From contig ONOV01000027.1 of NCBI GenBank assembly GCA_900319505.1, forward strand, positions 1 to 12,112: a stretch of DNA of 12,112 nt, written 5' to 3'. Below the pieces are notes generated by a model. The model was not told where the DNA came from, did no database searches, and was given only the letters and a program-made list of their open reading frames with translations. Source of the stretch: an uncultured Erysipelotrichaceae bacterium. GTDB taxonomy: Bacteria; Bacillota_I; Bacilli_A; Erysipelotrichales; Erysipelotrichaceae. A program made the position numbers and the translations under genes. This document shows positions 2,196 through 12,112 of this stretch, one piece after another (position 1 is the first letter of the stretch; each line of letters opens with the position of its first letter).

Positions 2196-2939
2196 ATGAA
2201 GAAGAACAGTGAAAAAGCAAAGAAGATCGGCCTGCTGTTAGCGGCAGTGGCGATTCTGATACTGATTGTCTTTCTGATTGTGCACTTTTTCGGCGACAGC
2301 TTCGCAACGCTGTGGCAGCTGTTGAAAGACGGCAATCAGGAAGAAATGCAGGAATATCTCAACAGTCAGGATGAATTCTCAGGCTTGATCAGCGTGTTTA
2401 TCCTGACCGTCCTTCAGGTCATATCCATCTTCTTTCCAGGCATGATTATTCAGGTTGCGGCCGGGGTAATCTATGGCTGGTGGAAGGCGTTTATTGCCTG
2501 CTATCTCGGTTTTGTGACAGGAAATGTACTGGTATTCTATTTTGCCAGACGTTTTTCCAGCGTTATTTCATCCATCATGAATCTGGAAAAGAGGAAACAG
2601 AGCTGGATTACGGAAAAGATCAACAGTACCAAGCCGGGCTTTGTCTTTGCGCTTGCCTGCATGATCCCCGGCATTCCCAATGGCTTTATTCCTTATTTTG
2701 CCTCAAGAACAGACATCCGGATGTATCAGTATGCGGAAAGTGTGGCAGTATCCAGCTGGATTCAGATTCTGTCCAACTGCATCATCGGCCATTTCCTGAT
2801 CCGTGGAGAATACTTCTATATGATCATGTCGATTGTCCTGCAGATTGCGATCATCCTGCTTGCCATCTGGAAGAGGGACTGGTTCTTAGGCAAAGGCAGT
2901 ATTAAGAAAACAGATGCACAGAAAGTGGAAGAGAAGTGA
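2196..2939 (+). CDS. VTT-domain (TVP38/TMEM64, DedA-like) integral membrane protein
   Basis: The 247-residue protein has a basic N-terminus (KKNSEKAKK) and a first membrane helix at about residues 12-32. A hydrophilic stretch rich in Glu and Gln follows, then the VTT core. That core shows the family signature: FFPG, then an AG..YGWW..A segment, then small Gly-spaced helices ending in FYFARR, and later a PGIPNG re-entrant motif. The C-terminal helix is followed by a charged tail ending KVEEK. Related proteins act as lipid scramblases or transporters (undecaprenyl-phosphate recycling in DedA/UptA relatives), but no specific substrate can be assigned. The start at 2196 is chosen because the predicted transcript begins near 2182 and a weak GGGAAAG precedes this ATG. 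Starts at 2166 or 2178 would add 10 or 6 residues. It appears monocistronic, flanked by terminators. Confidence 0.88.
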   Translation: MKKNSEKAKKIGLLLAAVAILILIVFLIVHFFGDSFATLWQLLKDGNQEEMQEYLNSQDEFSGLISVFILTVLQVISIFFPGMIIQVAAGVIYGWWKAFIACYLGFVTGNVLVFYFARRFSSVISSIMNLEKRKQSWITEKINSTKPGFVFALACMIPGIPNGFIPYFASRTDIRMYQYAESVAVSSWIQILSNCIIGHFLIRGEYFYMIMSIVLQIAIILLAIWKRDWFLGKGSIKKTDAQKVEEK

Positions 2940-2957
2940 GAAATCATTTCTCTTTTT
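2938..2957 (+). terminator. Short intrinsic terminator overlapping the VTT stop codon
   Basis: The stem GAGAAA (2938-2943)/TTTCTC (2947-2952) has a 3-base TCA loop and is followed by TTTTT. The stem is short and A/T-rich, so efficiency may be partial. An alternative pairing AGAGAA/TTCTCT uses sequence inside the end of the gene. Confidence 0.5.
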
Positions 2958-2966
2958 GCGTTGGAA

Positions 2967-2975
2967 TGGTAAAAT
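2967..2975 (+). promoter_or_regulatory. Extended -10 promoter placed for a leaderless mRNA (small membrane peptide operon)
   Basis: TGGTAAAAT is an extended -10 (TG 2967-2968, TAAAAT 2970-2975) ending 7 bases before the ATG at 2983. No good -35 is seen at 16-18 bases. No Shine-Dalgarno precedes the ATG, so transcription probably starts at or within one base of it. Confidence 0.55.
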
Positions 2976-2982
2976 CGCGTGT

Positions 2983-3078
2983 ATGAATAACAGAAGAAAA
3001 AAGGGATTGATCCGCGATATGATCACGCTTGCCTTTCTGATTGTGATGATGATCGCGGCATATTTCATGGTGAAGTAG
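2983..3078 (+). CDS. Small single-pass membrane peptide (31 residues)
   Basis: An ATG-to-TAG frame of 31 codons encodes a basic N-terminus (MNNRRKKGLIRD) followed by an uninterrupted hydrophobic segment of about 16 residues and a final Met-Val-Lys. This is the layout of a one-helix membrane peptide with its N-terminus inside under the positive-inside rule. It is too short for standard gene callers. Support comes from the extended -10 promoter ending 7 bases before its ATG, from its place just after a terminator, and from its stop codon lying one base before the start of the M32 peptidase gene, which has only a weak ribosome site of its own. It may be a functional peptide, a leader cistron that delivers ribosomes to the peptidase gene, or both. 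I recognise no family. A type I toxin is possible but no antisense RNA promoter was identified. Confidence 0.6.
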   Translation: MNNRRKKGLIRDMITLAFLIVMMIAAYFMVK

Positions 3079-3079
3079 G

Positions 3080-4582
3080 ATGAAGGAAGAAGAACTGAAG
3101 CAGTTTGAAACATGGCAGATGCGCCTGTCTGCCTATCAGATGGCACTTGCCCTCATCGGCATTGATAAGGAAACAGTCGCACCGGAAGACGGTACGGCAT
3201 ACCGGGATGAAAGAACGGCAGTTCTGGATGGGGAATACTACCGCATCGCTTCTGATCCTGCGATCTATGCCCTGTTAAAGCGCATGAAAGAGGATGAGAC
3301 GCTGGACCATGACACAAGACGTGCGGCCGCCCTCGCCGCCCTCTATGTGAAGGATATGTCTCATACCTTATGTGTGCCGCAGGATGAATATGTGGCCTAT
3401 GGGCGTCTATTGGCGTCGGCCTATCCGATCTGGCGCAAAGCCAAGCAGCACAATGACTACGCTTCCTTTGCCCCGGTGCTCAAAGACATCATCGCCGCCA
3501 AAAAGAAGCTGTACAGCTATCGTCAGAGCTGTGAAGACATTTATGATCAGATGCTGGATGACTATGAACCGGGCATGAACCGGCGGATCTATGATGATTT
3601 CTTTGAAAAGCTGACGGAAAGACTGGTTCCTCTGATACAGAAAACTGTCAGAGCAGAACAGATTGATGACAGCTTCCTGTATCAGAACTATCCGGTGGAG
3701 GGACAGAAGGCTTTCATGAAAGATCTGCTGCAGTATGTGCAGTTTGATCCATCCTGGGGCTATCAGAATGAAACGGAACATCCTTTTACATCCTGGACAT
3801 GTGCCGGCGACTGCCGTACGACAACTAAGTATCTGCCTGATAATGTCATTTCCGCCATCCTTTCCACCGTTCATGAAACCGGCCATGCCTGGTACAGGCA
3901 TCAGATCGATCCGAAATATGACGGTACGATCCTGGCTGAAGGCGTTTCTTCCGGCATGCATGAGTCCCAGTCAAGACTCTGTGAGAACCTGCTGGGCCGG
4001 CGCAGATCCTTCTGGGAATACAATTATCCTGCCCTGCAGAAACAGTTCCCGGCTCAGCTTGGTGATGTTTCACTCGAGCGCTTTGTCAAAGGTATCAATG
4101 TAACCCGGCCCAGCCTTGTGCGTACGGAAGCGGATGAACTGACCTATCCCATGCATATAGCGGTGCGCTATGAAATGGAAAAGGGCATCTTTAACGGGTC
4201 CATTCCGGTGGAGCATCTGGAAGAAGCCTGGAATGATCTCTATGAGAAGTATCTCGGCATCCATGCCGAAACGGCAGCTGAAGGAATTCTGCAGGATGTG
4301 CACTGGGCCGATGGCGATTTCGGCTACTTTCCGACCTATGCCCTCGGCTCAGCCTATGCCAGCCAGTTCATGGCTGCCATGGAAAAACAGATTGATGTGG
4401 ATGAGGCACTGCGCAGCGGCCACTATGAAACGATCATGACCTGGCTCAGGGAACATGTCCATCACTATGGCTGTTCACTGACCAATGAGGAAATCCTGCA
4501 GAAGGCAGCCGGTGAATCATTCAATCCTGCATACTATCTGCAGTATCTGGAAGAAAAGTACAGCAGGCTGTATCAGTTATGA
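3080..4582 (+). CDS. Metallocarboxypeptidase, peptidase family M32 (carboxypeptidase Taq type)
   Basis: This is a 500-residue zinc carboxypeptidase that removes C-terminal amino acids from peptides in the cytoplasm. The active site is His265-Glu-Thr-Gly-His269 (the HExxH motif), with the third zinc ligand Glu295 in the HESQSRL motif. Other family blocks are present in the right order: HPFT, a CRTTTKY counterpart of the usual DVRITTRY, PSLVRTEADELTYPMHI, WNDLYEKYLGI, GILQDVHWADGDFGYFPTYALG. The length matches the family norm of about 500. There is no signal peptide. The start follows the stop of the 31-codon frame by one base (TAG-G-ATG), suggesting translational coupling, and the end overlaps xpt by 4 bases (ATGA). 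A role in peptide turnover and amino-acid scavenging is likely. Confidence 0.96.
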   Translation: MKEEELKQFETWQMRLSAYQMALALIGIDKETVAPEDGTAYRDERTAVLDGEYYRIASDPAIYALLKRMKEDETLDHDTRRAAALAALYVKDMSHTLCVPQDEYVAYGRLLASAYPIWRKAKQHNDYASFAPVLKDIIAAKKKLYSYRQSCEDIYDQMLDDYEPGMNRRIYDDFFEKLTERLVPLIQKTVRAEQIDDSFLYQNYPVEGQKAFMKDLLQYVQFDPSWGYQNETEHPFTSWTCAGDCRTTTKYLPDNVISAILSTVHETGHAWYRHQIDPKYDGTILAEGVSSGMHESQSRLCENLLGRRRSFWEYNYPALQKQFPAQLGDVSLERFVKGINVTRPSLVRTEADELTYPMHIAVRYEMEKGIFNGSIPVEHLEEAWNDLYEKYLGIHAETAAEGILQDVHWADGDFGYFPTYALGSAYASQFMAAMEKQIDVDEALRSGHYETIMTWLREHVHHYGCSLTNEEILQKAAGESFNPAYYLQYLEEKYSRLYQL

Positions 4583-5175
4583 AAGAGCTGGAAGACAGAA
4601 TCCGCAGGGATGGCAGAGTGCTGGCGGGCGGCATTCTCAAGGTGGATGATTTTCTCAATGTCCGCATTGATCCGGTTCTGATGGATCACATCGGTAAGGA
4701 ATTTGCCCGTCTGTTTGAAAAGGACAAGGTCACGATGGTGCTGACCATTGAAGCTTCCGGCATTGCCCCGGCTTACAGCACGGCTCTGGCACTTGATGTG
4801 CCGCTGGTATTTGCCAAAAAGGCAAGAAGCGCCAATCTTGGCCAGGGAGATGTGTATTCAGCCCGGGTCAGATCGTTCACCTATGGCCGGGACTACGATA
4901 TTCTGGTGCCTTCCCGGTTCATCACATCGGCTGATCGTGTGCTGATCATCGATGATTTTCTGGCCAATGGCTTTGCGGCAAGAGGCCTGAATGAAATCAT
5001 TCATGAAGCAGGGGCAGAGACAGCCGGGGTCGGTGTCTGTATTGCCAAGTGCTTCCAGCCCGGTATGAAATTGCTGGAAGAAGAATGCCTGCATGTGGAA
5101 GCTCTGGCGGCAATTGAAGCCATGGATGAAAACGGTATTGTTTTTCGTGAGATGAAATCAGGTGAAGAAAAATGA
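4579..5175 (+). CDS. xpt: Xanthine phosphoribosyltransferase
   Basis: The enzyme converts xanthine and PRPP to XMP for purine salvage. The 198-residue protein aligns by eye along its whole length with Bacillus Xpt (about 194 residues): LKVD.FLN..IDP.LM near the N-terminus, TIEASGIAPA, VPLVFAKKARS, the PRPP-binding VLIIDDFLANG (residues about 121-131) and a CFQPG segment near the C-terminus. In many Firmicutes xpt is led by a guanine riboswitch and paired with a xanthine permease. Here it is internal to an operon, overlaps the peptidase gene by ATGA and has neither. Its expression must therefore follow the upstream promoter. It also overlaps the next gene by ATGA. Confidence 0.95.
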   Translation: MKELEDRIRRDGRVLAGGILKVDDFLNVRIDPVLMDHIGKEFARLFEKDKVTMVLTIEASGIAPAYSTALALDVPLVFAKKARSANLGQGDVYSARVRSFTYGRDYDILVPSRFITSADRVLIIDDFLANGFAARGLNEIIHEAGAETAGVGVCIAKCFQPGMKLLEEECLHVEALAAIEAMDENGIVFREMKSGEEK

Positions 5176-5642
5176 GTGAAGAAAGTGTACGTGCACAGCT
5201 GAAAGAGTATGGCTTTGAAGACCGGATTGTCGATATGACGGACAGTCTGGCAACGGTGGCGCTGGCAGCGGAAGCACTGGGCATTGAAGAGGATGAAATC
5301 GCCAAGACACTTGCCTTTATGGTAGAGGAAAAGCCGGTGCTTGTGGTGATGGCAGGCAGAGCCAGAGTCAACAACCATAAGTTCCGTGAAACCTTCCATG
5401 TCAAGGCAAAGATGATGAACGGCCGGCAGCTGATGGATCTGGTCGGTCATCCGGCCGGCGGTGTCACCCCGTTTGGGGTCAAAGAGGGAGTAGAGATCTA
5501 TCTTGATGAGACATTAAAGCGCCATCCGGTATTCTATCCTTCCGCCGGCAGTACGGACAGTGCCGTACGGGTGAGCGTGGAAGAGATGGAAAAAATCACG
5601 CATCCGGTTAAGTGGGTAGATGTTGCCGTCGAAAACGAGTAG
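5172..5642 (+). CDS. YbaK/EbsC (ProX-like) aminoacyl-tRNA deacylase
   Basis: The 156-residue protein belongs to the YbaK/ProRS INS-domain superfamily, which hydrolyses mischarged tRNAs such as Cys- or Ala-tRNA(Pro) in trans. Visible landmarks are the conserved lysine Lys45 in EIAKTLAF (matching the catalytic Lys of YbaK), a strand-rich VLVVMAGRARVNN segment, and the GHPAGGVTPFG motif that forms the substrate pocket. The last third contains a YPSAGS segment and the usual hydrophobic strands. The gene overlaps xpt by ATGA and has a reasonable ribosome site, AGGTGA, 6 bases before its ATG. Which mischarged tRNA it edits cannot be read from the sequence. Confidence 0.9.
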   Translation: MSEESVRAQLKEYGFEDRIVDMTDSLATVALAAEALGIEEDEIAKTLAFMVEEKPVLVVMAGRARVNNHKFRETFHVKAKMMNGRQLMDLVGHPAGGVTPFGVKEGVEIYLDETLKRHPVFYPSAGSTDSAVRVSVEEMEKITHPVKWVDVAVENE

Positions 5643-5648
5643 AATAAT
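5640..5648 (+). promoter_or_regulatory. Possible -10 element immediately upstream of the flippase gene
   Basis: Overlapping hexamers TAGAAT (5640-5645, containing the stop of the preceding gene) and AATAAT (5643-5648) lie 9 and 6 bases before the ATG at 5655. No Shine-Dalgarno is present in the 12-base gap, which suggests a nearly leaderless internal transcript. No convincing -35 is seen (TTGCCG at 5623-5628 is too close), so this is tentative. Confidence 0.3.
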
Positions 5649-5654
5649 CCCGTT

Positions 5655-7304
5655 ATGAATAAAAACAGCAACAGTGAAGCAGTAAAAAAAAGTCTGGTAC
5701 TCAGCGGACTTGTCGGTACGGCAGGTCTTTTCATTGCCAAACTTCTGGGTCTTGTTTATTCGATACCGCTGTCAACGATCCTCGGTTCCGATGCCTATAT
5801 GAGCTACTACGGCACGGCCTATCGAATCTACAGCTATATCCTCAATATCTTTACCGCCGGCTTTCCTTTTGCCATTGCGACCATGGTGGCCAAATACACC
5901 GTACGCAATGACAACCGTGCACTGAAGAAGATCAGAGTCATCTCGCATACCCTGATGGCTTTAGTCGGGTTTCTCGGCATGGTGGTGATGTTTGCCTTTT
6001 CCTGGCTTCTGGCCAGGGTAGTGGCAGATGGCAGCGGGGTGAAGATCATGGGCACCTGCCTGCGTATTCTTTCCTTTGCCATCTTCCTTGTGCCGATTCT
6101 TTCCAGCTACAGAGGTTTCTGGCAGGGACGCAAGGAAATGGGGGAATATGCGCTTTCCCAGGTCTTTGAACAGATCTTCCGCGTCGGTTTTCTGCTGACG
6201 ATGGCGTTTCTGATTGTCTATGTGTTCCATCAGAAGCGGGTCTATGCGCTGTATACGGCCGTCATGTCAACGTCCATTGCGGCACTGGCCGGCATTATCC
6301 AGATCGCTTACTTCGATAAGAAAAACTATGGCGAAATCGTGGAAGGGGCAAAGAACCAGACAGCCGCAACCCGTTCCAAGCGGAAGCTCTTTCAGGAATT
6401 CATTTCCCTGGCACTGCCGTATCTTGGCGTTGCCGTACTTGGCTACAGTGATGATATCTACAACTCCATTCTGCTGCCGGCCAGCCTGAAGCTTGCCGGC
6501 TATTCCGGCAAAGACCAGGCCGTCATTCTATCGGCCACCAACTATGTCGGTACCAAGATCACTGCCATCCCGATGATTCTTTCCCCGGGCTTTGCGGCAG
6601 CTCTGATCCCGCACATCACCTCCGCCCGCACGGAAGGCGATGTCCGCAAGATTGAACACAATGTACTGGACTGCATCAACATCATCCTGTACATCGGCCT
6701 GCCGGTATCCTTCTGCATCTATCTCTATGCCAGGGATATCTACCATATTCTCTTCTATACATCCAACCTTACCCTTGCCTCGAACTGTCTGAAATGGATG
6801 GCCATTGAAGGCATCATGCAGACACTGATGCCGGTTGTCACCAATATCATGATGGCTCTAGGCATGAAGAAGGAAACACTGCAGAATCTGGTAGCCTATG
6901 TTGTGATCAAGGGTGTTTCTCTGATCGTATTCATCATGCTTTTAGGCTATCCCGGCATTGCCTTATCCAGTGTGCCCGGGGTGCTTTACATTGTGATCCG
7001 CAGCTTCCATCAGATGCAGAAGCAGTATGACATTCATTTCCAGAAGGTTATTGAAGTACTGGTGAAGTGTCTGATCGGTCTTGTCCTGATGCTTGGGGTG
7101 TGCTTTGTCTTGAGAAAGATCGGCATTGACGGCACCCAGGGCAGAAAGATCATTGCCTTAGGCAAAGTGTTCATCAATATTGTGATGACGCTGGGTGCCT
7201 ATCTGGCGCTGACTTCCGCCTTCAGACTGCCGCAGGCCGTCTTCCATACCGACATCATCAGCGCACTGAAGCGCCGTATGCATAAAAACAGGGAAACAGC
7301 CTGA
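5655..7304 (+). CDS. SpoVB/YtgP (MurJ)-type lipid-linked polysaccharide flippase, MOP superfamily
   Basis: The 549-residue polytopic membrane protein has hydrophobic segments spread over its whole length, consistent with about 14 helices, starting at residues 14-36. Family landmarks include the first-helix pattern LGLVYSIPLSTILG, GFPFAIATMVAKY (about residues 67-79), SYRGFWQGRKEM followed by SQVFEQIFRV, and a GYPGIALSS segment late in the protein. These match the Bacillus YtgP/SpoVB branch rather than Wzx or MATE drug exporters. YtgP is a lipid II flippase in B. subtilis (MurJ), but several paralogues usually exist, so the substrate is uncertain. The basic tail KRRMHKNRE should be cytoplasmic. 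The gene follows the deacylase gene by 12 bases with no terminator and no Shine-Dalgarno; read-through from the upstream operon is likely, perhaps with its own promoter. Confidence 0.9.
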   Translation: MNKNSNSEAVKKSLVLSGLVGTAGLFIAKLLGLVYSIPLSTILGSDAYMSYYGTAYRIYSYILNIFTAGFPFAIATMVAKYTVRNDNRALKKIRVISHTLMALVGFLGMVVMFAFSWLLARVVADGSGVKIMGTCLRILSFAIFLVPILSSYRGFWQGRKEMGEYALSQVFEQIFRVGFLLTMAFLIVYVFHQKRVYALYTAVMSTSIAALAGIIQIAYFDKKNYGEIVEGAKNQTAATRSKRKLFQEFISLALPYLGVAVLGYSDDIYNSILLPASLKLAGYSGKDQAVILSATNYVGTKITAIPMILSPGFAAALIPHITSARTEGDVRKIEHNVLDCINIILYIGLPVSFCIYLYARDIYHILFYTSNLTLASNCLKWMAIEGIMQTLMPVVTNIMMALGMKKETLQNLVAYVVIKGVSLIVFIMLLGYPGIALSSVPGVLYIVIRSFHQMQKQYDIHFQKVIEVLVKCLIGLVLMLGVCFVLRKIGIDGTQGRKIIALGKVFINIVMTLGAYLALTSAFRLPQAVFHTDIISALKRRMHKNRETA

Positions 7305-7310
7305 ACTGAC

Positions 7311-7340
7311 GGTACTGTTCAGAATGGACAGTGCTGTTTT
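7311..7340 (+). terminator. Intrinsic terminator after the flippase gene
   Basis: The stem GGTACTGTTC (7311-7320)/GGACAGTGCT (7326-7335) has three G·T pairs and an AGAAT loop. It is followed by GTTTT. The T-tract is short and runs directly into the -10 of the next gene. An alternative hairpin is CTGAAC/GTTCAG with a 10-base loop. Confidence 0.6.
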
Positions 7341-7345
7341 AAAAT
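7318..7345 (+). promoter_or_regulatory. Promoter of the primase-like gene, embedded in the terminator
   Basis: A -35-like TTCAGA (7318-7323, 4 of 6 consensus bases) is followed after 16 bases by TAAAAT (7340-7345), 6 bases (ACAGAT) before the ATG at 7352. This puts +1 at the start codon. No Shine-Dalgarno is present. Confidence 0.55.
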
Positions 7346-7351
7346 ACAGAT

Positions 7352-8695
7352 ATGAACACGGATCCTGTGATTGAAAAGGCAAAAGAGAACATACATGAAA
7401 AACTGCGCATGGAAGAGATCGGCTTATGGCTGTTTGGCTCACCCGATCCAAGACGCTGGCTCTGTCCCTGTCACAATGACCATCATCCCGGCAGTGTAGC
7501 CGCTTATGATGAAGGCAGAAGATTCCACTGTTTTTCATGCGGAGCAGATGGGGATGTCATTACACTTGTGATGAAGAAGAAGCACTGTGCGTTTCCCTGG
7601 GCCGTGTATCTGATTGCGGCGCAGTTTGACGGTATTGTCAATGAACAGGAATTTTCGCATCTTGCCCGGATGCTGCATGGTTCTTCCTGCCGCATGATGG
7701 AAAGCATACCTGAGAAAGACGGCATGGAAACAGATGAAGTACAGCGGGCGCCGGCCTATATTCTGGATATGGTGTACCGCATCTTCATTCAGGGCAGAAG
7801 TCTTCTGTATCCCTGCAGCGGTGTACTGACGCTGAATGATTACAGGTATCTGAGAAACAGAGGCATAGAGGATACAGTGATCCGTGAGAATCAGTACTTT
7901 ACCATGATGGATGAAACGATTCTGCCGCCTCTGATTCAGAAACTGGCCGAGAGGAACTACAGTGAGGATATTCTGATCGGCGTGCCGGGATTCTGCCGGG
8001 ACAGAAAGAGCGGCAGCATCAGGATGGCCGTTCAGAAGGGCATCGGCATCCCGATTCATGATGTCTGGGGCAATATCACGGCCATTCAGATCCGCCGCAG
8101 TACGAGTGAGAAAACACGCTACATCTGGTATTCTTCCGCTTCAGCCGGCCATCCGGAACGGATGGATGGCGTCTCCTCCGGTTCGCCCCAGGATGTATTG
8201 TGTGGAAAAGATGACAATGCGCGCGACATCCTGATTACGGAAGGCCATTTCAAGGCGGATGCGTTCCGCCGTTATGGCCATATGAGTGCCATCAGCGTGC
8301 AGGGCATTGCCAGCTGCCGTGATATTGATGTGCCGTTAAGACAGCTCATTGCGCAGAAACATAAGACATGCCGCATCCTGATCGGCTTTGACAGCGACAT
8401 GTATACCAATCCTGCCGTCTATCATCAGGCCGTGAAACTGGCGGATGACATTGTCCGGCAGAATCTGCCGGCCGTGATTGTATATCTGTTCTGGAACAGT
8501 ATGTATGGCAAGGGACTGGATGATGTGCTGCAGAACCATTATGAAAATGAGATTCATATGGCGGAGAAAGAAGACTTTGAAGCCGTCATGAGCCATTATG
8601 AAGCATTGACGCTGCATACAGATGAAGAAAGGAAAGAAGCGTTCCAGCGGGAAGTCATTGACCGGCTGAGCCAGCGCTATCTGCCGGGGGAATAG
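7352..8695 (+). CDS. Short DnaG-like protein: CHC2 zinc finger plus Toprim domain
   Basis: The 447-residue protein begins with a primase-type zinc finger: Cys38-x2-His41 and Cys60-x2-Cys63, with PCHNDHHPGS and HCFSCGADGDV matching the DnaG CPFH.E.TPS and HCFGCG.GG blocks. A middle region contains YRYLRNRGI and GIPIHDVWGN, which resemble the DnaG core blocks YL..RG and PI.D..G. The Toprim part has Glu297 in LITEGH, Asp347-Ser-Asp349 in GFDSDM, and a KGLDD motif at 387-391. These are the expected metal-binding acids, so the site looks intact. At 447 residues it lacks room for the DnaG C-terminal helicase-binding domain, so it is unlikely to be the housekeeping primase. Phage and plasmid primases of similar layout (DUF3854-like Toprim) are the closest comparison I can make. 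It probably forms a unit with the kinase gene 3 bases downstream. The role is unknown. Confidence 0.8.
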   Translation: MNTDPVIEKAKENIHEKLRMEEIGLWLFGSPDPRRWLCPCHNDHHPGSVAAYDEGRRFHCFSCGADGDVITLVMKKKHCAFPWAVYLIAAQFDGIVNEQEFSHLARMLHGSSCRMMESIPEKDGMETDEVQRAPAYILDMVYRIFIQGRSLLYPCSGVLTLNDYRYLRNRGIEDTVIRENQYFTMMDETILPPLIQKLAERNYSEDILIGVPGFCRDRKSGSIRMAVQKGIGIPIHDVWGNITAIQIRRSTSEKTRYIWYSSASAGHPERMDGVSSGSPQDVLCGKDDNARDILITEGHFKADAFRRYGHMSAISVQGIASCRDIDVPLRQLIAQKHKTCRILIGFDSDMYTNPAVYHQAVKLADDIVRQNLPAVIVYLFWNSMYGKGLDDVLQNHYENEIHMAEKEDFEAVMSHYEALTLHTDEERKEAFQREVIDRLSQRYLPGE

Positions 8696-8698
8696 GAA

Positions 8699-9601
8699 AT
8701 GAAAAAGAATTATATCAGTATTGATATCGGCGGCACCGAACTGAAATATGCCCGTATGGATGAAACCGGAAAGATCCTGAGCCATAGCTCAGTACCGGTT
8801 GCAGACAGCCTGGATGGGCTGCTGGATGAAATTGAAACAGTTTCTTCAGGAAAAGAAAACATGGACGGCATTGCCATCAGTGCACCCGGTCATATCAATG
8901 CCCGTACCGGCTACTTCTATACCGGCGGGGCACTGGTGTTTCTGAATGAAACGGACTTTGGCAGAATGGTAGAAGAGAGAATGCACTGTCCGGTATCAGT
9001 CATCAATGATGCCAAGGCTGCGGCAGCAGCGGAAGTATGGAAAGGGGCAATGCAGGGGGTGAAGACCGGACTGGTTCTGGTGCTTGGAACCGGGATCGGC
9101 GGTGCGATTGTTCTGGATGGAAAGGTATACAGAGGCTGCAGTGATGCGGCTGGAGAAGTATCCATGATTGCATCAGACTGGATAAAGCCTTATCGCAAAG
9201 GACATGTCTGGGCGGTTTATGAAGCAGCTTCTTCCCTGGTCAAGCGCTATGCGGCAGCCGCCGGTATGGACCCGGCTGCCTGCAATGGCCGGCTTATCTT
9301 TGCAAGAGCGGTTGAAAAAGAGGAAACAGCCCTGCGTGTTCTGCATGAGTTCTGTGCTGATTTTACTTCCGGTCTTTTCTCACTGCAGTCCATTCTGGAC
9401 ATGGAAAAAACAGCAGTCGGGGGAGGCATCTCCGCTCAGCCGCTGCTGTTTGAAATCATGCAGGAAGAAATTGATAAGGCCTATGCACCGTTCAAAGGAA
9501 AGGTTCCGTTTCAGAAACCGATCGTTGTACCATGCCGGTTCGGCAATGATGCCAACCTGATCGGTGCCCTCTATCATTTCTTCGAACTGTATCAGAAATA
9601 G
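8699..9601 (+). CDS. ROK-family sugar kinase lacking the zinc motif
   Basis: The 300-residue protein has the sugar-kinase/actin fold signatures of ROK proteins: ATP-binding DIGGTELKY near the N-terminus (residues 9-17), SAPGHI (61-66), the catalytic Asp104 in INDAKAA, and the second phosphate loop LGTGIGGAIV (129-138). The usual ROK segment with E-x-G-H and a CxCGxxGC zinc site is replaced by AGEVSMIASDW (150-160), with no Cys cluster and no His. Such zinc-less ROK proteins occur in Firmicutes and include β-glucoside and hexose kinases. There is no DNA-binding domain, so it is an enzyme rather than a NagC-type repressor. The substrate cannot be assigned and no sugar genes lie nearby. The ATG is 3 bases after the primase-like stop, with G-rich sequence and AGGAA as ribosome site. 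Its end overlaps the convergent repressor gene by 10 bases. Confidence 0.88.
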   Translation: MKKNYISIDIGGTELKYARMDETGKILSHSSVPVADSLDGLLDEIETVSSGKENMDGIAISAPGHINARTGYFYTGGALVFLNETDFGRMVEERMHCPVSVINDAKAAAAAEVWKGAMQGVKTGLVLVLGTGIGGAIVLDGKVYRGCSDAAGEVSMIASDWIKPYRKGHVWAVYEAASSLVKRYAAAAGMDPAACNGRLIFARAVEKEETALRVLHEFCADFTSGLFSLQSILDMEKTAVGGGISAQPLLFEIMQEEIDKAYAPFKGKVPFQKPIVVPCRFGNDANLIGALYHFFELYQK

Positions 9602-10185
9602 GTCTTGCAGGAAAGCACTCTGCCGATGATGCGCACCGGCAGCTCCCGTATTTCCTTTGCAGTGAAATAGCGGTTCTCCACCTGCGGATTGGCCGCCTCC
9701 AGCACAATCATGCCTTTGCGGATGATCACACGCTTGACCGTGACTTCATCTCCGATCAGTACAACCCCGATCTCTCCGCTTTCCAGGTGTTCCGTCTTAT
9801 GCACTAATACAAGCGACTGATCCATGATGCCGACTCCGCTCATGGAATTGCCGGTGACCCGCAGATAGTAGTCACCGGTTTTCATTTCGTCCAGCGTCGC
9901 TTCCTCTTCACCAAGATAATTCTCCTGTGCAAACAGATCATAGCCGGCCTTGACATAGCCGAGAATCGGCAGATGTACGGAAATATCCATTCCCTTCAGC
10001 AGCGGCTCCACATTGTATCCAAGCATGGCAGACAGCCGCTCCATGACATCCGAAGATACTTTACGCACTTCCCCCTTGCTCCAGCGTGATACCGTTGAAC
10101 GGTCGACTCCCAGTCTGCGGGCAATGGCCGCATCTGTTTCACCTGTCTTGTTTTTATACGTCTGAATCATCTCTTTGAGTTCCAT
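9592..10185 (-). CDS. LexA/CI-like repressor: XRE helix-turn-helix plus S24 self-cleavage domain
   Basis: The 197-residue protein has an XRE-type helix-turn-helix at residues 3-58 (IARRLGVDRSTVSRWSKGEV) and a C-terminal S24/LexA-type peptidase domain. The autoprotease features are complete: the Ala80-Gly81 cleavage site in GYVKAGYD, nucleophile Ser114 in GNSMS and general base Lys151 in VTVKRV. Such repressors are inactivated by RecA-stimulated self-cleavage after DNA damage, as in LexA and phage CI. The start at 10185 is chosen because a near-consensus promoter ends 6 bases upstream. The frame is open for 19 more codons, but that extension lies within and beyond the promoter. It is divergent from a Y-family polymerase gene, so control of that gene and of itself is the natural inference. 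It is convergent with the kinase gene, with no terminator between them. Confidence 0.92.
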   Translation of the reverse strand: MELKEMIQTYKNKTGETDAAIARRLGVDRSTVSRWSKGEVRKVSSDVMERLSAMLGYNVEPLLKGMDISVHLPILGYVKAGYDLFAQENYLGEEEATLDEMKTGDYYLRVTGNSMSGVGIMDQSLVLVHKTEHLESGEIGVVLIGDEVTVKRVIIRKGMIVLEAANPQVENRYFTAKEIRELPVRIIGRVLSCKTYF

Positions 10186-10191
10186 GCTTTT

Positions 10192-10219
10192 ATTATAGCT
10201 TTTCTGCACGGTTTGTCTA
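10192..10219 (-). promoter_or_regulatory. Near-consensus promoter of the S24 repressor gene, placed for leaderless mRNA
   Basis: On the minus strand, TAGACA (10219-10214) is followed after 16 bases by TATAAT (10197-10192), then AAAAGC and the ATG. The -35 matches 5 of 6 and the -10 matches 6 of 6 consensus bases. The start codon falls at the predicted +1, and no Shine-Dalgarno is present. Confidence 0.8.
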
Positions 10220-10231
10220 ATGACTGCTCTG

Positions 10232-10263
10232 ATATGTTGCATAAATGATTGAAATATGAAACA
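10232..10263. promoter_or_regulatory. Candidate operator: two ATATGnnnCA direct repeats
   Basis: ATATGTTGCA (10232-10241) and ATATGAAACA (10254-10263) are offset by 22 bases, about two helical turns, between the divergent promoters. The second overlaps the polymerase -35. A related ATATGATACA (11798-11807) overlaps the -10 before the nuclease-like gene. No Bacillus-type LexA box (GAAC-N4-GTTC) was seen. The motif also occurs inside genes (for example near 3353 and 10953), so this is only a candidate. Confidence 0.2.
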
Positions 10264-10276
10264 ATTTGCCTATAAT
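10249..10276 (+). promoter_or_regulatory. Near-consensus promoter of the Y-family polymerase gene, placed for leaderless mRNA
   Basis: TTGAAA (10249-10254), 16 bases, then TATAAT (10271-10276) are followed by CAGAAGT and the ATG at 10284. The match to σA consensus is 5 of 6 and 6 of 6. +1 is expected at or one base before the ATG. A strong promoter on a damage-response polymerase implies it must normally be repressed. Confidence 0.8.
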
Positions 10277-10283
10277 CAGAAGT

Positions 10284-11546
10284 ATGAAGGACAAGGTAAT
10301 CTTTCACATCGATATCAATCACTGCTATGCCCAGATTGAGGAAATGAAACAGCCTCATCTGCGTGATGTGCCGATGGCAGTCGGCGGTCATGAAGAAAAA
10401 AGGCATGGCATTATTCTGGCCAAGAATGATCTGGCCAAAGCAGCACATGTCATGACGGGAGAGAGTCTGCGGGAAGCAAAAGAGAAGTGTCCAGATCTGC
10501 TCATCATTCCGCCATCCTATGATGACTATATTTACTACACGGGTCTTGTCAAAGACATCTACCGGCAGTATTCCGATCATGTGGAGCCGTTCGGTCTGGA
10601 TGAAGCGTGGATTGATTATACGGACAGCCGGAAGCTGTATGGCGAGCCGGTGAAGACAGCCCGCCTGATTCAGGACCGGGTGGAGAAGGAAATCGGCCTG
10701 ACCGTATCGGTCGGTGTTTCCTGGAACAAGGCTTTTGCCAAACTGGGCAGCGACATGAAAAAACCGAGAGGCATGACCGTCATTACCCGTGACAATTACC
10801 AGAAGCTTGTCTGGCCGCTGCCGGCACAGGATCTTCTGTATGTCGGTCCGGCAACCATCCGTAAGCTTCATGCAAGAGGCATCATGACGATCGGTGATCT
10901 GGCCCAGTATCCTGCCGGTGTCCTGCACCATGATCTCGGTATTGCCGGCGATATGATCCAGCTCTTTGCAAGGGGAGAAGATCCTTCCCCCGTGGCTGAA
11001 AACGGGGCTTCTGCACCGATCAAATCCGTCGGTAATTCCATGACGCTTGTGCATGATGTAAAAAGCTTTGAGGAAGTGAAGCCGGTATTCTGGATGCTGT
11101 GTGAAGCTGTGGCATCAAGAGCCCGGGATGCCGGCATGGAGGGCAGTACGGTTTATGTTTCTCTGCGCAGTACGGATCTTGCCTGGGCGGGCAGACAGAT
11201 GAAGCTGGAGCGGCCGACGGATGTCAGTGATGAAATCATGACGGCGGTGGAGCTGCTGGTACATATGATGTGGCATGAGACCGTTCCGTTAAGAGCGGCA
11301 GGGGTGGCGCTTGGCAGTCTGAAAGAGGCATCCAGCTTCCGCCAGCTGAGTCTTTTTGAAGATGCAGAGCGCTTTGAAGCAGCCCGCAGATGCGATCTTG
11401 CCATGGATGAAATCCGTAATACATACGGTTTTGACAGTGTGAGGCGCTTATGTACGCTCAATGATAAGAAACTGACCGACTTCAATGTCAAGGCAGATCA
11501 TACCGTTCATCCGATCGGCTGCTTTCAGGGAAGAAAGATGGGGTGA
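10284..11546 (+). CDS. Y-family translesion DNA polymerase (DinB/UmuC type)
   Basis: The 420-residue error-prone polymerase has the N-terminal FHIDINHCYAQIE block with metal-binding Asp10 and a Tyr15 at the steric-gate position. Asp106-Glu107 lie in EPFGLDEAWIDYT, and SVGVSWNKAFAKLGSDMKKP is the family palm motif. A helix-hairpin-helix follows (VGPATIRKLHARGIMTIGDLA), then the little-finger region and a perfect β-clamp-binding pentapeptide QLSLF (354-358). The reading frame continues upstream to 10266 with a TTG, but ATG 10284 is chosen because the promoter -10 occupies 10271-10276. The sequence looks closer to the DinB/ImpB-MucB group found next to S24 repressors than to housekeeping Pol IV. 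Divergence from the repressor gene points to SOS-type induction. A small gene follows after 9 bases. Confidence 0.94.
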   Translation: MKDKVIFHIDINHCYAQIEEMKQPHLRDVPMAVGGHEEKRHGIILAKNDLAKAAHVMTGESLREAKEKCPDLLIIPPSYDDYIYYTGLVKDIYRQYSDHVEPFGLDEAWIDYTDSRKLYGEPVKTARLIQDRVEKEIGLTVSVGVSWNKAFAKLGSDMKKPRGMTVITRDNYQKLVWPLPAQDLLYVGPATIRKLHARGIMTIGDLAQYPAGVLHHDLGIAGDMIQLFARGEDPSPVAENGASAPIKSVGNSMTLVHDVKSFEEVKPVFWMLCEAVASRARDAGMEGSTVYVSLRSTDLAWAGRQMKLERPTDVSDEIMTAVELLVHMMWHETVPLRAAGVALGSLKEASSFRQLSLFEDAERFEAARRCDLAMDEIRNTYGFDSVRRLCTLNDKKLTDFNVKADHTVHPIGCFQGRKMG

Positions 11547-11555
11547 TGACAAACC

Positions 11556-11798
11556 ATGGAGTTATATAAACGCTATGTGGATGTGGTGACGCTGCAGCGT
11601 AAAAGCGGCACCATGACGCCTCTGTTTCTGGTATGGGACGACGGGCGGAAGTATGCCATTGATAAAGTGGTCAGTGTGGAAAGAAGGGCTTCACAGGTAG
11701 GAGGATGCGGCATCCGCTATGCCTGTATGATCTGCGGGCAGAGAAGAAATCTTTTTTATGAGCGAAACCGCTGGTTTATCGAAAGCACACAGCCGTGA
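11556..11798 (+). CDS. Small hypothetical protein (80 residues) downstream of the translesion polymerase
   Basis: The 80-residue protein is predicted to be mostly β: short alternating strands, a WDDGRKYAIDKV segment, a Gly-rich turn VGGCGIRYACMICG and a C-terminal LFYERNRWFIES. It could form a small barrel of SH3 type. Cys residues in GGCGIRYACMIC could bind metal, but the spacing does not match a known finger. From memory, small proteins with a GG.GIRY...I.G and LFYE..RWF pattern sit beside Y-family polymerases in other Firmicutes; that would need a search. YolD proteins, common partners of such polymerases, are longer and look different. Translation probably uses GGGGTGA just upstream, overlapping the polymerase stop, and the gene lacks its own promoter, so it is cotranscribed. 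Confidence 0.75.
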   Translation: MELYKRYVDVVTLQRKSGTMTPLFLVWDDGRKYAIDKVVSVERRASQVGGCGIRYACMICGQRRNLFYERNRWFIESTQP

Positions 11799-11804
11799 TA
11801 TGAT
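11796..11804 (+). promoter_or_regulatory. Extended -10 promoter placed for a leaderless mRNA (nuclease-like gene)
   Basis: TGATATGAT is an extended -10 (TG 11796-11797, TATGAT 11799-11804). Its first three bases are the stop codon of the preceding gene. It ends 6 bases (ACAGGC) before the ATG at 11811, and there is no Shine-Dalgarno. No strong -35 was found. Confidence 0.5.
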
Positions 11805-11810
11805 ACAGGC

Positions 11811-12112
11811 ATGCCCAAAACAGAACAGACGCTTCAGCTGGAACAGGCGCTGGAGCGGGACAGCCGGAAGAAAAGAGAATACGGATGCACGGAAGTCACC
11901 ATCGGTTTTCGTCATAACGGCCATGGGGATGAGATTGTGGATTACATGTCCATGGATGCCCGGGAGATTTTCCGCTGCTATGAGCTGAAGGTCAGTTTTT
12001 CCGATCTGAAAAGCAATAACCATCTTTCCTGGTACGGAGACTACAATTACCTTGTCATCAGTGAAAGAATGCTGCTGCGGCCGATTCCCTATGACAACTA
12101 TGTGCCGCCCTA
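11811..12112 (+). CDS. Partial protein with a PD-(D/E)XK nuclease-like (MmcB-like) pattern
   Basis: The frame runs from ATG 11811 off the end of the window, giving 100 residues. After a charged helix (residues 5-23) come a strand CTEVTIGF (Glu28), an Asp44 in GDEIVDYMSMD, and CYELKVSFSDLKS with Glu58-x-Lys60, then WYGDYNYLVIS. Helix, strand with Asp, then strand with E-x-K, followed by a D-L-K-S turn, is the pattern of PD-(D/E)XK enzymes. It recalls the MmcB DNA-repair family (…VEIKSSxxDF…). This is a motif-level judgement on an incomplete protein. Its position behind a translesion polymerase and S24 repressor supports a DNA-repair role. It has its own candidate promoter but may also be read from the polymerase promoter. 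A transport or phage function is less likely. Confidence 0.65.
   Translation, partial: MPKTEQTLQLEQALERDSRKKREYGCTEVTIGFRHNGHGDEIVDYMSMDAREIFRCYELKVSFSDLKSNNHLSWYGDYNYLVISERMLLRPIPYDNYVPP

Follow-up and report, generated by a model that had tools for sequence, protein, structure and literature searches.

Introduction

Genes that dispense with a Shine-Dalgarno (SD) leader have been reported several times in Firmicutes. According to Zheng et al. (2011, PMC3160421), TA-led genes are predicted in 56 of 209 Firmicutes genomes, with a mean of 4.2% and a range of 2.4-16.6%. Differential RNA sequencing (dRNA-seq) of Streptococcus pyogenes gave 8.6% leaderless mRNAs, and the same report cites 9% for S. 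agalactiae and S. pneumoniae (PMC6431027); nine transcripts are described as apparently leaderless in Mycoplasma gallisepticum (PMC4245973). A comparative study cautions against attributing an AT-rich bias between -20 and -10 simply to leaderless promoters (PMC5397173). Searching by title and abstract, with most subscription journals outside the search, we found no report on leaderless genes under Erysipelotrich- or Erysipelothrix. Here we study predicted leaderless starts in a stretch of 12,112 nucleotides from an uncultured Erysipelotrichaceae bacterium (assembly GCA_900319505.1, contig ONOV01000027.1), hereafter the window, and in the genome and genus to which it belongs.

An earlier note on the window had pointed to -10 hexamers lying close before several ATG codons, had proposed that, if the pattern held genome-wide, the first gene of an operon in this lineage would mostly be translated by 70S initiation at a 5' AUG, and had named positional -10 enrichment over the genome as a check. 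The host genome comprises 1.56 Mb in 239 contigs, of which the window is one (C127), and its readable sampled contigs have a GC content of 46-51%. For the M32 carboxypeptidase encoded in the window, the nearest named relatives are in metagenome genomes RUG14107 (labelled Lachnospiraceae; 58% identity), followed by Erysipelotrichaceae RGIG2927 and Tb.RUG.113 (46%) and then by two Erysipelothrix species (38%). Our analysis indicates that in a minority of genes the -10 hexamer is very probably so placed that the transcript starts on the AUG or 2-4 nt before it, and that this class recurs across the genus.

Results

A spacing signal before the start codons of the host genome

Because the window alone gives too few starts for statistics, further stretches of the host genome were sampled. 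Of 80 additional contigs, C22, C138, C103, C80, C26 and C56 were picked as long (in motif listings) and the rest by contig number; after 17 of the 81 stretches had been dropped as N, 64 readable stretches remained, the window included, with 556,822 bases. From 517 called open reading frames (ORFs), 93 with a low coding score or no start were removed, leaving 424 genes, and 11 more without usable start or upstream sequence were set aside, so that 413 genes entered a mixture model with three classes (SD, -10-adjacent and neither) and gaps initialised uniformly over 0-15, the gap being the number of nucleotides between the end of the -10 hexamer and the start codon. For the enrichment test the starts were picked from coding potential alone (n=403).

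Before these 403 starts, the positional enrichment named as a check in the earlier note is present: matches to the learned -10 number 0 at gaps 0-5, 18 at gaps 6-9, 2 at gaps 10-13 and 0 at gaps 14-17 (18 against 2 for 6-9 and 10-17), and a broad leadered peak follows from gap 18 onward. The exact hexamer TATAAT before an ATG that opens at least 80 codons behaves alike, with 21 occurrences at gap 6-9, 6 at 10-17 and 74 at 18-40 (p 3e-6 for the first against the second). The mixture model converges on TATAAT with gaps of 6 (39%), 7 (15%), 8 (16%) and 9 (17%), and a scrambled seed also recovers TATAAT at gaps 6-9 in this unsupervised setting; when the model is restricted to gap windows 10-17, 18-25 or 26-33, no promoter-like motif emerges. 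Over the whole host genome the pattern TATAATN{6,7}ATG occurs 53 times, against 14 for the backward pattern, a control blind to codon phase and gene context and not relied on alone. More starts than chance would give thus have a -10-like hexamer whose end falls at gap 6-9, the property by which TA-led genes are recognised. This sharp spacing answers only in part the caution about AT bias (PMC5397173).

Recurrence of the signal in the genus

Hexamers of this kind might be chance AT-rich matches or codon-pair artefacts, namely Tyr-Asn codons in frame with Met, and a phase effect does exist: at 3691 internal Met codons TANRAT is found 15 times at gap 6, 7 times at gap 7 and 0 times at gap 8. Gap 12-13 was chosen as the codon-phase-matched control and replaces an unmatched 13-14 control, which moves the ratio from 1.55 to 1.65. 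In 36 genomes of the genus, the host included, TATAAT before ATG still occurs 2949 times at gap 6-7 against 1791 at gap 12-13, and the former exceeds the latter in all 36, with ratios of 1.17-3.29. The spacing signal recurs throughout the genus. The phase-matched excess, together with the near-empty interval of gaps 10-17 before the coding-only starts, leaves the chance or codon-pair explanation very improbable.

Against the backward control, TATAATN{6,7}ATG gave 77 vs 56 in the metagenome relative G060 (RUG14107), 36 vs 16 in G061 and 56 vs 13 in G062, and 96 vs 69 and 85 vs 66 in Erysipelothrix anatis and E. aquatica. A different family of the order, represented by 24 genomes, showed no excess (6016 at gap 6-7 vs 6041 at gap 12-13, higher in 13 of 24); since TATAAT is more frequent there in general, a small leaderless class could be masked.

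Promoter features of the predicted leaderless class

Of 30 strong leaderless cases, 10 have the TGn extension before the -10 where 1.9 are expected (p 1e-5), as do 13 of 38 leadered TATAAT sites. At leadered TATAAT sites a purine stands 7 nt downstream of the -10 in 33 of 39. This is the expected transcription start site. At gap 6 the base in question is the A of ATG itself, and of the strong leaderless sites with gaps 8-10, 11 of 12 have a purine there, as have 14 of 18 at a looser threshold (p 0.06). From the purine position and the gap it follows that leaders are likely 0 nt at gap 6, 0-1 nt at gap 7 and 2-4 nt at gaps 8-10. The TGn and purine signals also run counter to an origin of the hexamers in chance or codon pairing, an explanation that, with the phase-matched control and the gap distribution, is refuted for the leaderless class as a whole.

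Predicted leaderless starts in the window

The features of the window that bear on these starts are as follows.

2931..2952, + strand: terminator-like hairpin and T-run, immediately upstream of the 2983 promoter
2970..2975, + strand: -10 TAAAAT, extended (TGG), gap 7 to the ATG at 2983
2983..3078, + strand: ORF of 31 aa that includes a hydrophobic stretch and stops 1 nt short of the ATG (3080) of the M32 carboxypeptidase gene
5640..5645, + strand: TAGAAT, its TAG being the stop of the upstream gene, gap 9 to the ATG at 5655 (posterior 0.936); a weak case
7315..7331, + strand: terminator-like hairpin, its T-run continuing into the -10 of 7352
7340..7345, + strand: -10 TAAAAT, gap 6 to the ATG at 7352 (posterior 0.969)
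7352..8695, + strand: CHC2 zinc-finger / DUF3854 (primase-like) gene by Pfam, predicted leaderless
9592..10185, - strand: LexA-like (HTH and peptidase S24) repressor gene, predicted leaderless (posterior 0.995)
10192..10197, - strand: -10 TATAAT, gap 6 to the ATG of the LexA-like repressor gene
10214..10219, - strand: -35-like TAGACA, 5/6 match to TTGACA, 16-nt spacer to the -10 of the LexA-like repressor gene
10249..10254, + strand: -35-like TTGAAA, 16-nt spacer to the -10 of the Y-family polymerase gene
10271..10276, + strand: -10 TATAAT, gap 7 to the ATG of the Y-family polymerase gene
10284..11546, + strand: Y-family DNA polymerase (IMS) gene by Pfam, predicted leaderless (posterior 0.994)
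11799..11804, + strand: -10 TATGAT, extended (TGA), gap 6 to the ATG at 11811, abutting the upstream stop codon

The hexamers and gaps that the earlier note gave for five starts (7, 6, 6, 7 and 6 for 2983, 7352, 10185 on the minus strand, 10284 and 11811) were found as described, and so were its two -35 boxes with 16-base spacers (TTGAAA for 10284, TAGACA for 10185 minus), its two extended -10s at 2983 and 11811, and its ranking of 5655 as a weaker sixth case, with gap 9 and a hexamer that overlaps the upstream stop codon. Its statement that the five lack an SD sequence agrees with an SD posterior of at most 0.015 at 7352, 10284 and 10185 minus, and at 2983 and 11811 with inspection by eye only; at 5655 this posterior is 0.052. 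The start at 157 carries GGGGAGGA. For 7352, 10284, 10185 minus and 5655 the gene model favours the -10-adjacent class (posterior 0.94-0.995); it scored neither 2983, which is too short, nor 11811, which has an open end.

Twelve starts of the window (157, 2196, 3080, 4579, 5172, 5655, 7352, 8699, 10185 minus, 10284, 11556 and 11811) were tested against chance, with 2983 excluded as an ORF selected for its -10. TANNAT lies at gap 6 or 7 in four of them (7352, 10185 minus, 10284 and 11811), where 0.06 are expected from all window positions (p 3e-7) and about 0.16 from shuffled upstream sequences (p 1.5e-5). Taken singly, the hexamers at 2983, 5655 and 11811 could be chance.

At these same three starts the -10s may be real and yet serve otherwise, through translational coupling to the upstream gene at 5655 and 11811, where the upstream stop lies 12 nt before the start, or as a leadered promoter for the M32 gene at 2983. 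Besides loci L023-L028, 24 M32 loci were retrieved, of which the host's own and 16 others, one with only 51 nt upstream, were examined and 7 left out; a counterpart of the 2983 ORF before the M32 gene was found in none of the 16 same-genus loci and in none of 5 named loci, so that the ORF is either private to the host genome or its -10 merely a promoter for M32. By reading, TATAAT stands 22-25 nt ahead of the M32 start codon in three of the 16 loci (L199, L200 and L204), which also speaks for a leadered promoter. We regard this explanation as quite possible for the three starts, though short of probable; it does not apply to 10185 minus and 10284, which are divergent, nor to 7352, which a terminator-like hairpin separates from the upstream gene. 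The CHC2 zinc-finger / DUF3854 primase-like gene at 7352-8695 stands in an apparently chromosomal setting, and in the 26 relatives with a match to its protein, among 35 searched besides the host genome, only the zinc-finger end was matched.

The share of predicted leaderless starts

The fitted mixture assigns 83% of the 413 genes to the SD class, 12.5% to the leaderless class and 4.5% to neither. By gene, 354 of 413 are SD-led and 45 are leaderless at a posterior above 0.5, 31 of them above 0.9. Predicted leaderless genes are a minority class, about 7-13% of the sampled genes, in a strongly SD-using genome. The anti-SD 3' end of 16S rRNA gave no exact match in any of 12 genomes, probably for want of readable sequence at that place.

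The proposal that first genes of operons in the lineage are mainly leaderless draws on the window, with its four of twelve starts and a p value down to 3e-7. It is not borne out in the sample: among 171 first genes, 145 are SD-led and 22 leaderless (posterior >0.5), the fitted SD share is as high as given above, and exact TATAAT stands far more often at gap 18-40 (74) than at gap 6-9 (21). The window is richer in leaderless starts than the sample. The proposal is contradicted in the sampled 556,822 bases, barring a large number of SD-led genes with a second promoter that escaped notice, and we give it next to no credence. The accompanying statement that leaderless mRNAs are not the norm in Firmicutes is right as it stands, but such genes are reported there, at up to 16.6% by prediction (PMC3160421) and at 8.6% in S. 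pyogenes (PMC6431027).

Orthologues of the repressor and polymerase genes

The LexA-like repressor carries an N-terminal HTH (PF01381, HTH_3, E 1.1e-5) and a C-terminal S24 domain (PF00717, Peptidase_S24, E 2.6e-23). Its gene lies divergently beside the Y-family polymerase gene in nine of ten same-genus loci identified by close full-length polymerase relatives; in the tenth, G002, a LexA-like neighbour was not found. In six of the nine (the host, G005, G003, G013, G019 and G020) the -10 ends exactly 6 nt before the ATG, and it reads TATAAT in all but G013, which has TATACT. The repressor gene has an SD sequence instead in G014 and G009, and neither is clear in G018. In the other family the orthologous LexA-like loci have an SD in four of four (G041, G042, G047 and G048), the weakest in G041; at a fifth locus, G046, the repressor is a different one, likewise with AGGA as an SD-like sequence.

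For the polymerase gene, 15 of 16 loci with a close relative were compared, the partial match L148 being left out, and the gene is plainly leaderless in only two of them (the host and G003). Among the other 13, which lie within L134-L147, TATAAT is by reading kept upstream in 12 while the start codon shifts; in the majority an SD precedes the aligned start, with a short leader. An in-frame ATG also occurs at gap 8 in G019 and G020 and at gap 5 in G041, which gives two candidate starts each. As repressor and polymerase orthologues differ in start type, leaderless starts seem to be gained and lost in exchange for short SD leaders.

Between the two genes of the window, at 10198-10283, there is an inverted repeat of the type TGTTGCAT...ATGAAACA, and by eye similar GTTGC/GTTTC...GAAAC/GCAAC repeats stand at the equivalent place in many orthologous loci. 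The repeat in the window looks like a putative operator of a LexA/HdiR-like switch.

Compaction and gene content

A same-strand neighbour lies within 400 nt of 15 leaderless genes (posterior >0.8), eight of which are separated from it by at least 25 nt. Six of these eight intergenic regions contain a terminator-like hairpin with a T-run, one of the six belonging to a doubtful transposase start. The median length of intergenic regions with a hairpin is 55 nt for the six leaderless genes and 110 nt for 45 of 90 SD genes (p 0.025), which is no more than suggestive of a compaction between terminator and start in leaderless genes. The hairpin at 2931-2952, before 2983, stands outside this count. 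A hairpin and T-run reaching nearly into the -10 can be seen in the window at 7304-7352 and 2939-2983 and elsewhere at L081:7478-, L072:4072-, L057:5036- and L003:13351+; at such sites the end of one gene and the promoter and start of the next are fused within about 40-60 nt.

A Pfam scan of 27 strong leaderless genes, run without an SD control set, assigned a family to 22 at E 1e-8. Relatives of mutY, mutL, tag, truB, D-Tyr-tRNA deacylase, folD and holA are included, with gene names of our own assignment. It is conceivable, though unlikely, that leaderless starts are a selected device for compaction and stress robustness, in which terminator, extended -10 and AUG are fused and genes of repair or SOS type (MutY, MutL, Tag, the Y-family polymerase and the LexA-like repressor) would keep being translated when SD-dependent initiation is impaired.

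Discussion

The signal is best explained by promoters of the usual housekeeping-sigma type, many of them with a TGn-extended -10, from which RNA polymerase would begin transcription at the A of the AUG when the gap is 6-7 and 2-4 nt ahead of it when the gap is 8-10. The resulting mRNAs would be leaderless or nearly so and would be read without an SD sequence, presumably through 70S ribosomes that bind the 5' AUG directly (or with help from IF2).

Several results weigh against this explanation. Besides the polymerase loci described above, the -35 boxes are weak, with only three of 30 strong cases having 5/6 matches at spacers of 16-18, and they are poor in leaderless and leadered TATAAT sites alike. 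Two of 27 strong calls outside the window resemble start errors, a release factor 2 and an IS605-type transposase gene, both with TTG. The mixture model yielded no -10 motif in G345 of the same family (171 genes), a weak, degenerate and seed-dependent one (gaps 6 and 13; not regained from a scrambled seed) in G062 (181 genes), and no usable motif in 74 kb of G019 (54 genes). A pattern that includes the -35 was run class-wide on 296 genomes, with a hand tally of families f1 and f17 and the other 243 genomes left out; it showed little excess over a spacing control in f1, the family of the host (27 genomes, 97 vs 81) and no clear excess in f17 (26 genomes, 195 vs 159). The release factor 2 ORF (L022:5685-6746, minus strand) is without a good start of its own, which is presumably to be expected if prfB bears its usual programmed frameshift.

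With this analysis an Erysipelotrichaceae-like lineage joins those bacteria whose genomes, though dominated by SD-led genes, have a predicted leaderless class of considerable size. Leaderless genes at such a level are known in Firmicutes; what is new is the lineage, for which we found no report. All 36 genomes of one genus show the spacing signal, which the 24 genomes from a different family of the order do not, and the orthologues of the LexA-like repressor, some predicted to be leaderless and others with a short SD leader, offer a natural experiment on the gain and loss of such starts. Gene finders trained on SD sequences only may misplace leaderless starts.

The transcript of lambda cI from PRM is the leaderless mRNA of a repressor gene beside a divergent promoter. 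The present case differs in that a chromosomal LexA-like repressor stands beside a Y-family polymerase and its leaderless mRNA is only predicted. With the TA-led genes of Zheng et al. (2011) the class shares a TANNNT/TATAAT hexamer about 12 bp upstream of the start, its minority status beside SD-led genes, and the TG before the -10 seen in several low-GC genomes; but the Firmicutes cases there are mostly Lactobacillales and Mycoplasma, the main text there does not contain the words Mollicutes, Tenericutes or Erysipel-, and here the genome is Erysipelotrichaceae-like with about 7-13% (PMC3160421). The leaderless mRNAs of streptococci make up a similar share and are conserved between species, but their 5' ends were measured, whereas ours are inferred (PMC6431027). 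The -10-adjacent ORFs of Deinococcus-Thermus owe their leaderless expression to a -10 that immediately precedes the ORF, as we propose here, but they make up about 30% of ORFs against 7-13% in the present genome (PMC12340547).

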